64,000 nt of DNA from Gammaproteobacteria bacterium. GTDB lineage: Bacteria; Pseudomonadota; Gammaproteobacteria; Natronospirales; REEB76. A program made the translations under genes and the position numbers. Below are positions 39,343 to 43,065 of the stretch, in pieces (position 1 is the stretch's first letter; each line of letters starts with the position of its first letter). Location: contig DATEHU010000026.1 in assembly GCA_035279405.1 (NCBI GenBank), positions 124,001 to 188,000 of the forward strand, written 5' to 3'. A model generated the notes under the pieces. It was given only the letters and a program-made list of their open reading frames with translations. It did no database searches and had not been told where the DNA came from.

Positions 39343-39537
<195 letters not shown>

Positions 39538-39578: not shown

Positions 39579-39968
39579 ATGACCGACACACGACCGCTGT
39601 CACCGCACGTTGGCGTTTACCGGTGGCAGATCACCATGACCATGTCGATCGCACACCGCATCACCGGAGTGTGGTTGGCGATCGGCACGCTGGCGCTGGT
39701 GTATTGGCTGGTGGCCGCCGGTACCGGGCCGGACAACTTCGCGACCGCGCACTGGTTTTTCGGTACCTGGATCGGCCAGATTCTCATGTGGTTGTGGACG
39801 TTCAGCCTGTTCTACCACCTGTGCAACGGCATCCGCCACCTGTTTTGGGACGCCGGGCAGGGATTCAAGATCCGGACCATCTACTTGAGCGGCTACAGCG
39901 TATGGGTGCTGGCCTGCATCCTGACGGCCCTGACCATCCTGTTTGCCTATCTCGGAGGCCGGCCATGA
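39579..39968 (+). CDS. sdhC: Succinate dehydrogenase cytochrome b556 subunit
   Basis: Membrane anchor and heme-binding subunit of complex II. 129 residues with three membrane helices (about 29-48, 66-88, 106-126). [26 protein letters not shown] and the heme region [17 protein letters not shown] (His80, His87) are typical. It overlaps sdhD by 4 bp (ATGA). Confidence 0.96.
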
Positions 39969-40345
39969 GCTACCGCACACCGCTGGCGCGCGCGCGCGGG
40001 TTGGGCTCGGCCAAGGACGGCACCACGCACTGGGTCGTGCAACGCATCACGGCCGTGGCCCTCGTGCCGCTCAGCCTGTGGTTCGTGGTTTCAATACTCA
40101 TGCTCATGCATGCCGACTATGTTGCGGTCGTGAACTGGATGCATGCGCCGTGGAATGCCATTCTGCTGGTGCTGCTGGTGCTCACGATGTATTGGCACGC
40201 TTACCTGGGCCTGCAGGTGGTGGTCGAGGACTACGTGCATGTCGCGTGGGTGAAAGTGAGCGCCATCGTTTTGCTGCGCCTGCTGGCCGTGGTGTTGACC
40301 GCCATCGGCATTTTCGTGGTGCTACGTATCGCCTTTGGGGGTTGA
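39965..40345 (+). CDS. sdhD: Succinate dehydrogenase membrane anchor subunit
   Basis: 126 residues, three membrane helices. Starts [20 protein letters not shown], the conserved N-terminal amphipathic region, followed by [19 protein letters not shown] and the heme/quinone helix [19 protein letters not shown] with the conserved His. ATG 39965 overlaps the sdhC stop. Its own stop overlaps sdhA by one base. Confidence 0.95.
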
Positions 40346-42138: not shown

Positions 42139-42283
42139 CGACGCTGTTGCATGGCGGGATGCGCCGTTGCCGGAAATTCGCGCGAGCCGCCGGGCTCAAC
42201 TCGGTAGCCGCTGGCAAGCGTCCGAGAATACCCAGAGCGTGCATAGAGCCAGTCGCCAACCCACCAGGGACGGGATATCACCC

Positions 42284-42433
42284 ATGAATGAAATCTCCCG
42301 CTTGCGCTGGCAGTGCCGACGGGGGCGAGCCGGAAAGAGAAATTCGTCCAGTGGACGAAATTCCCGGCGAGCGCCCGGACAGGGAAGTCCGGGCTGGCCA
42401 GCGCACCACGGACGGTCGCCTGCTCATGAATGA
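42284..42433 (+). pseudogene. Truncated duplicate of the sdhE 5' end
   Basis: MNEISRLRWQCRRGR from ATG 42284 repeats MNEYGRMRWQCRRGL of true sdhE at 42426. Both the coding start and the preceding CACCA-GGACGG text are shared, about 65 bp in all, offset 142 bp. After CRRG the copy loses similarity and reads Ser/Arg/Pro-rich filler until TGA 42431-42433, which overlaps the sdhE start. It lacks the SdhE core, so it is a remnant. A 49-residue peptide could still be made but no clear ribosome site is seen. Confidence 0.7.
42343..42393 (+). other. Two hairpins in the sdhA-sdhE gap
   Basis: TTCGTCC-agt-GGACGAA (42343-42359) and CCCGGAC-agggaa-GTCCGGG (42374-42393) are perfect 7-bp stems only 14 bp apart, just before sdhE. 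They could stabilise or punctuate the sdh transcript. No U tract follows either, so ordinary intrinsic termination is unlikely. Confidence 0.55.
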
Positions 42434-42668
42434 ATACGGGCGCATGCGCTGGCAGTGCCGGCGTGGCTTGAAAGAACTGGACGTGTTGCTGGAACGCTAT
42501 CTGCAGGAGCATTTCAGCACGGCACCGGCCGCGGAACAGCAGGCGTTCGCGGAATTGCTGTGTCTCCCGGATCCTTTGCTGTTGAGTTACATCATGGGCC
42601 GGGACCAGCCGGACAACCAGGAGCAACGCCGTGTCATCGCCAGCCTACGGCGAACCCCTCGAACTTGA
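42426..42668 (+). CDS. sdhE: SdhE, FAD assembly factor for SdhA
   Basis: 80-residue helical protein that promotes covalent flavinylation of SdhA. RMRWQCRRGLKELDVLLERY matches the conserved RGxxE surface (CRRGLKELD). FAELLCLPDPLLLSYIMGRD is the usual second half. Found next to the complex II genes and followed by ygfX with a 38-bp overlap (AGGAG at 42619-42623 serves ygfX). With SDHAF4 upstream, this operon carries two SdhA assembly factors. Confidence 0.94.
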   Translation: MNEYGRMRWQCRRGLKELDVLLERYLQEHFSTAPAAEQQAFAELLCLPDPLLLSYIMGRDQPDNQEQRRVIASLRRTPRT

Positions 42669-43065
42669 TATCCGGCCTTCGCGCCAGGTGGCGAGCCTTT
42701 TGCTGGCCATCCATCTCACCGCAGCCGTGGTGATTGCGCAGCTGCCCATGGCGCTGACGAGCCGGCTGGCGATTCTGACGGCGATCCTGGCGAGCCTCAT
42801 CTGGAACGGGGTGATGTTCTGGCGGCGCACGCCCAAGAAGCTGCTGTGGTCGCGCGAGCAGGGCTGGCGTATCACCGATCGCCGCGGCCACACACATGAT
42901 CTCGACTTGCTGCCGCAGGCTTATCTTGGCAACTGGATGATGGTCGCGCATTTTCAGACGCCCGGGGGAAAGCGCCGTGCGGTGATGCTGGCGCGCGACA
43001 GTTGCAGCGCGGACAGTCTGCGCCGTTTGCGGGTGATGCTGCGTTACGGAACGCCGAAGCACTGA
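42631..43065 (+). CDS. YgfX/CptA-type membrane protein
   Basis: 144 residues. Two adjacent membrane helices (about 20-60: VASLLLAIHLTAAVVIAQLP and LAILTAILASLIWNGVMFW) precede a soluble C-terminal part with KLLWSREQGWRITDRRG. This matches the YgfX family (formerly CptA), encoded beside sdhE (CptB). A toxin role has been proposed for E. coli YgfX, but is contested. GTG 42631 starts inside sdhE with a good AGGAG seven bases upstream. Confidence 0.85.
   Translation: MSSPAYGEPLELDIRPSRQVASLLLAIHLTAAVVIAQLPMALTSRLAILTAILASLIWNGVMFWRRTPKKLLWSREQGWRITDRRGHTHDLDLLPQAYLGNWMMVAHFQTPGGKRRAVMLARDSCSADSLRRLRVMLRYGTPKH

Follow-up and report, generated by a model that had tools for sequence, protein, structure and literature searches.

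What takes the place of sdhB, the gene for the iron-sulfur subunit of complex II, when the sdh operon of a gammaproteobacterium runs from sdhA directly into sdhE, and where has the gene itself gone? The question is raised by a 64,000-nucleotide stretch of DNA (C26:124001-188000, here called the window) from a draft assembly of 2.46 Mb in 59 contigs (G000, the window genome; 97.57% complete by tool), for which a reading made without database searches (the sequence-only reading) had pointed to the missing subunit gene.

The sdh operon of the window

The window carries sdhC, sdhD, sdhA, sdhE and ygfX as open frames with matches above the Pfam cut-offs, in keeping with the sequence-only reading, which had called these genes intact; a DUF1674 gene (for an SDHAF4-like assembly factor) likewise passes (Table 1). 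The subunits, the sdhC-sdhD-sdhA order and the assembly-factor neighbours (DUF1674, sdhE-ygfX) are those of a gammaproteobacterial sdhCDAB operon. Unlike in such an operon, sdhB does not directly follow sdhA anywhere in the window but lies outside the operon, belongs to a distinct SdhB lineage and stands beside a cysteine-synthase-like gene. As that reading had stated, sdhA adjoins sdhE across a 287-bp gap with no sdhB in between, and the window holds no SdhB-type ferredoxin motif; the genome's sole PF13085 match (E of 0.001 or better) is outside it. The retention of both SdhA assembly factors had been judged unusual, but DUF1674 and SdhE matches flank sdhCDAB in 7/7 family genomes with an operonic sdhB, and by our own count both are present in 16 of 80 named sdh loci.

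Table 1. Features of the sdh locus and of the solo sdhB loci (positions without a contig name are those of the window)
Feature	Location	Strand	Remarks
DUF1674 gene (SDHAF4-like assembly factor)	39373..39537	+	PF07896, 61.9 bits
sdhC	39579..39968	+	PF01127, 118.8 bits
sdhD	39965..40345	+	PF01127, 80.9 bits; CybS, 24.4 bits (cut-off of 27 not reached)
sdhA, 597 aa	40345..42138	+	TIGR01816, 958.9 bits, above cut-off
Gap, first half	42139..42282	+	G002 has similar DNA, G009 a shorter stretch of it; this half terminates in a CACCAGGGACGG-type element end (by eye)
Truncated sdhE 5' copy	42284..42322	+	81% repeat; flank match score 44, offset 0
Hairpin element	42323..42416	+	Covariance model R1, 97.2 bits; best match to the model and itself one of its 12 seeds
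sdhE, complete	42426..42668	+	PF03937, 78.5 bits
ygfX (Cpta_toxin family)	42631..43065	+	PF07254, 53.9 bits
Solo sdhB	C26:317822-318619	-	Sole hit of the genome to PF13085 (2Fe-2S, SdhB-type), E of 0.001 or better
Broken solo sdhB, frameshifted	G006:C21:25104-25867		Decay stage beside the cysteine-synthase-like neighbour
Broken solo sdhB, cut to about 40 residues	G005:C5:61805-61930		Decay stage beside the cysteine-synthase-like neighbour

The gap contains repeats and hairpins, and draft assemblies can collapse repeats, which raises the question of whether an sdhB between sdhA and sdhE was simply collapsed or dropped during assembly. The same sdhA-sdhE junction is present in three relatives (G009, G002 and G003), which are separate genome entries, although possibly of one common sequencing study, and the gap differs in length among them (56 bp in G003, 223 in G009, 287 in G000 and 418 in G002). 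The shared junction argues against misassembly, as does an intact sdhB elsewhere that is kept beside the same neighbour in two of the three relatives. An assembly artefact is thus very improbable, and the suspicion of a deletion or misassembly peculiar to the window finds no support.

A solo sdhB gene on the same contig

The expectation that sdhB must lie elsewhere was borne out by a genome-wide profile search, which finds a copy with an intact frame on the same contig, about 152 kb from sdhA (the solo sdhB). Since the assembly is a draft, a further sdhB may be present in its missing part. The solo gene has a TTG start preceded by AAGGAG, encodes 266 aa and begins 12 bp after the stop of the cysteine-synthase-like gene, a spacing that suggests that the two are probably co-transcribed. 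Beyond it are a DUF488-like gene (named by eye, with no NCBIfam match) and an AhpD-like gene. The solo SdhB exceeds the Pfam cut-offs for PF13085 (110.4 bits), PF13534 (34.5) and PF13183 (33.2), that is, Fer2_3 plus dicluster Fer4; it also passes the dhsB model and, with 348.8 bits against a cut-off of 228, NCBIfam PRK05950. In the alignment the Cys residues of all three clusters, at what we take to be the ligand positions and motifs, are canonically spaced. Its dN/dS values (0.04 for G000-G009 and 0.09 for G000-G003) indicate purifying selection. With sdhCDA in the window and an intact, conserved solo sdhB, complex II is complete on paper, and the solo SdhB would be expected to assemble with the SdhA, SdhC and SdhD of the same genome.

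Split sdh loci with a separate sdhB are known from Rickettsia. In alphaproteobacterial split loci sdhB is likewise apart from sdhCDA, with genes between sdhA and sdhB; several of these loci keep sdhB about 0.5-3 kb from sdhA, whereas here the distant copy is of a second lineage.

Two sdhB loci and their probable fates

The sample of the order comprises 19 genomes, 16 of which have both sdhA and sdhB; G008 and G012 have neither at the thresholds applied. In all 13 genomes outside the clade of the window genome sdhB directly follows sdhA, and in all three of the clade (G000, G009 and G003), each with one sdhB, the two genes are apart. G002 has the sdhA-sdhE junction, but neither a solo sdhB nor the cysteine-synthase-like neighbour was found in it, probably because this genome is 80% complete.

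The cysteine-synthase-like gene has orthologues in 5 of the 12 family genomes (G000, G009, G003, G005 and G006; 81-98% identical to that of the window genome), and some of the other seven are incomplete (G004 52%, G011 76%). G005 and G006 have an intact operon sdhB and, beside the cysteine-synthase-like gene, a broken one (Table 1). A GST-like gene (named by eye) lies between the broken sdhB and the DUF488-like gene in both. In the more distant class member G251 the cysteine-synthase-like gene likewise precedes the DUF488-like gene and this the AhpD-like gene, and no sdhB match lies between them. No orthologue of the second sdhB locus was found in the other genomes of the genus, and the pairing of a cysteine-synthase-like gene with sdhB was found outside the genus neither in the 80 named loci nor in seven further loci (L180-L186). 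A second, distant SdhA/SdhB-like pair occurs in G010 (C36:12365-14807) and G004 (C161:7-2290), 44-45% and 34-36% identical to the proteins of the window genome.

The solo copies also differ from the operon copies in sequence. The broken copy of G006 groups with the solo genes in three trees (support 98/86, 92/79 and 82). A Trp before the AC motif is found in exactly the five rows of the solo lineage among 97 aligned, and the position before RRSC is Leu in 7/7 family operon SdhBs and Phe in 84 of the 97 rows, including the solo copies (six rows are unread).

The native operon sdhB might itself have moved to the new site. Such a relocation would agree with the single sdhB per genome in the clade, with the identity of the solo SdhB, which is highest to the operon copies of G005 (76%) and G006 (75%), and with the failure of the AU tests (below) to reject a family origin of the solo lineage. 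It is disfavoured by G006, whose intact operon copy and broken solo copy mean that both loci coexisted, and the Leu of the family operon copies against the Phe and the lineage-specific Trp of the solo copies also speaks against it. We consider relocation unlikely.

In a genus tree of five proteins, all of them from the sdh neighbourhood, G005/G006 do not come out as the sister group of the G000 clade, which makes an ancestor with both copies, followed by opposite losses, the simplest history. The order of events inferred from this is as follows. Two sdhB genes were most likely present in an ancestor within the genus, a native one behind sdhA and a second beside the cysteine-synthase-like gene. 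The clade of G000, G009 and G003 (probably with G002) would then have lost the native gene and kept the second, and G005 and G006 would have kept the native gene as the second decayed. An exchange of sdhB between species would also fit. The coexistence of both copies, the distinct lineage and the decayed counterparts suggest that the role of the operon copy, since lost, passed to the second sdhB. Our conclusion, which we hold with good confidence, is that complex II is complete but split, that a solo sdhB of a second lineage has replaced the operon copy, and that the gap holds a repeat element instead of a remnant of sdhB. Replacement of this kind with reciprocal decay is a new form of split sdh locus.

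Origin of the solo lineage

The solo lineage may be an old duplicate that arose within the family or a foreign gene. In the free tree an orphan SdhB of Rhodanobacter thiooxydans LCS2 joins the solo lineage, on a long branch, outside the operon SdhB of the family (100/99), making it the nearest outside SdhB in the trees. The orphan is part of an sdhB-sdhC-sdhD set with no adjoining sdhA match and, unlike the solo gene, shares its genome with two further sdhCDAB sets, which fall outside the solo lineage. Its locus (L084:5932-7606) continues with an aconitase-like gene (named by eye), and no sdhA match is present in the 12.8-kb locus. Besides this tree, the discrete residues (Trp, Phe/Leu) that set the solo lineage apart count against an old duplicate, as do AU tests with the Rhodanobacter gene held outside the clade (p 0.0688 and 0.0649 for a family origin). 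A duplicate would agree with the identities, which are highest to family operon copies (the 80 outside SdhBs kept are at most 73% identical), and with the AU tests in which the Rhodanobacter gene was inside the clade (p 0.273 and 0.582) or left out of the tree (p 0.889). In two AU tests the tree with the family kept as one group scored higher than that of the free search, with margins of 36.6 and 2.5 log units. The AU tests thus do not reject a family origin, which they leave open, and birth within the family is a reading that we take seriously without favouring it. In a search for a donor among 369 sampled Gammaproteobacteria, the window genome alone matched the orphan at 1e-128 or better and 11 did so at 1e-122, and in the orphan's own family 1 of 147 matched, which was the orphan itself.

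The gap holds a dispersed hairpin element

The sequence-only reading had described the gap as a duplicated sdhE start with two hairpins. The description is correct: the repeat spans 42283-42324 and 42425-42466 (81% over 42 nt), and two stem-loops can be seen by eye between the copies. What it missed is that the gap holds one copy of a dispersed element, and this duplicated start with its hairpins is the more unusual part of the locus. No remnant of sdhB was seen in the gap, which matches the repeat element and in G003 is only 56 bp long. The first half of the gap is probably an eroded older copy of the element, although the covariance model gives no match there. The truncated sdhE copy and the element form a frame of about 50 codons (42284-42433), whose stop overlaps the sdhE start. 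Since the frame crosses the element and reaches its stop just inside sdhE, translational coupling to sdhE is possible on the basis of the arrangement.

In each of the three longer gaps (G009, G000 and G002) there are one or two strong copies, accompanied in every case by an sdhE 5' end; G001, of another genus with sdhB in place, has a copy too (64.1 bits). A DNA search finds gap-related DNA in 9 of the 12 family genomes. The covariance model, built from 12 hand-picked copies of which most were picked after the flank repeats (below) had been seen, matches at least 53 copies in the window genome and occurs in at least 16 of the 19 genomes of the order, among them 12/12 of the family; with scoring limited to 150 candidates in each genome, the true numbers may be higher. 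Outside the order, 995,288 bases of 88 loci, centred on genes other than tRNAs, gave one weak match (E 0.043).

The element is about 95 nt long with three stem-loops (by eye); most matches are of about 65-102 nt and three of 132-166 nt. Pairing holds in 95.3% of the pair cells of 90 distinct copies compared with 69.4% in shuffles, and 13 of the 14 model pairs have changes on both sides, figures that lean towards the structure since the alignment is fitted to it. GG stands at the left edge in 85 of 92 copies, a count that leans on the model, which begins with GGG. Rfam gave no match near the gathering score in the gap, plasmids gave no match, and viral contigs gave none to one tRNA-element junction pattern. 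In Rfam and among the matches listed in the literature searched, where most subscription papers were beyond reach, the element is undescribed.

REP/RAYT repeats are short dispersed hairpin repeats that are sometimes found in genes (PMC3733652). The element resembles REP in being such a repeat and differs in lacking a terminal GTAG or CGTC tag (consensus of 12 copies, by eye), in its length and three stem-loops, and in the repetition of a neighbouring gene end. A MITE has terminal inverted repeats and a short target duplication; the element begins with GGGCGAGCC... and closes with ...CACCAGGGATGGT, which by eye form no inverted repeat, and the flank repeats seen are long.

Gene ends are often repeated on both sides of the element

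The 45 nt to the left of each element copy were aligned with about 250 nt to its right (threshold score 30) for 88 of the 94 model matches; six were left unscored (two partial matches and four with flanks that were too short). The left flank recurs on the right in 48/88 copies, against 22/1035 mismatched pairs, and in 38/76 when the 12 seed copies are set aside. The match ends exactly at the left edge of the element in 44 of the 48, which are not independent since some are the same site in several species, and in at least three of which (L264, L267 and L289, offsets 1, 6 and 5) the match is to a neighbouring element copy and not to a gene end.

A tRNA gene is directly downstream in 30 of the 48 scoring copies. 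Among the other 18 are protein-gene starts (sdhE, murG, rpe and sufC), arrays with a second element before a tRNA, the three or more matches to neighbouring elements, and a few copies without an assigned target. The starts of xthA (scores 23 and 27) and one sdhE case are below the threshold (range 23-28); these protein genes were named from their encoded N-termini, which we presume to identify them. A complete tRNA starts within 90 nt downstream in 41 of 92 copies (51 are without one) and a tRNA ends within 90 nt upstream in six of 92. Thirty of the 88 copies have neither a tRNA nor a scoring repeat. Of 33 tRNA cases with a score of at least 26, 20 are in sense orientation, and in 15 of these the left copy stops at tRNA position 18-19, presumably the D-loop GG; in all 13 antisense cases it stops 15-17 nt from the tRNA 3' end. 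At L271, before sufC in the window genome, the element lies at the end of the preceding gene and seems by eye to supply its TGA stop.

Integrative islands with tyrosine integrases restore the tRNA genes into which they insert. Many of the element copies, though only part of the total, resemble them in standing at fixed places relative to tRNA genes with a whole tRNA on one side. Unlike them, the element has no room for an integrase gene in its length of about 95 nt; it is found at either end of tRNAs and at several protein starts, and half of its copies have no tRNA beside them.

How the element may move

These repeats would be accounted for by a moving unit that consists of the hairpin element, a spacer and the end of a specific gene. 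The unit would land behind a GG within that gene at another site, that is, at the D-loop GG or in the T-arm of tRNAs and at the starts of murG, rpe, sufC, sdhE and perhaps xthA. The native gene end would be left as a stump, and the incoming copy would supply a working replacement.

Alternatively, the flank repeats may be ordinary, if long, duplications of the target site, or may come from tandem duplication where an element was already upstream, without any transport of gene ends. Several arrays are perfect tandems, and at sufC G009 has one unit more than G000, the difference of 208 nt being the repeat period; the two sufC starts of G009 look by eye closer to each other than to that of G000. 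Against duplication, the flank repeat in tRNA cases often stops about at the gene boundary, with unlike flanks (by eye). Stumps and active starts of protein genes differ mostly at third positions (35 of 55 differences in eight hand-chosen pairs), an excess that is explained in part by decay, since a dead stump next to a copy under selection would alone give about 46% third-position changes by our own estimate. The sufC pair has the same bias although it is seemingly a tandem within one lineage. The first 48 nt of murG group G000 with G003 and the remainder groups G000 with its sister G009; sites divide 1:9 before this boundary and 53:24 after it (p 0.0005, for one gene in one genome triple and with the 48-nt boundary set afterwards). 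At the murG copy of G000 itself the flank repeat stays below the threshold (score 13).

The murG pattern, the third-position excess and the boundary stops suggest that the moving unit may include the gene end and restore the gene on landing. We tentatively infer a tiny non-coding mobile family, found in one order so far, that inserts in gene ends, brings replacement ends and shuffles them between species, a proposal in which our confidence is rather less than even; duplication in place comes close to an even chance.

Implications for complex II and for the repeat family

A core respiratory subunit has been swapped for a divergent copy at another site, and intact, broken and absent versions of this copy occur within one genus, which makes the genus a natural test of the exchangeability of SdhB between complex II assemblies. 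The gap left at the operon has in turn exposed a repeat family that often stands beside tRNA genes or the starts of core genes, with a gene end on both sides. If the element moves as proposed, small elements could find safe landing sites in essential genes and swap the ends of these genes from one species to another, and the annotation of start sites and the phylogenies of such genes would be affected.
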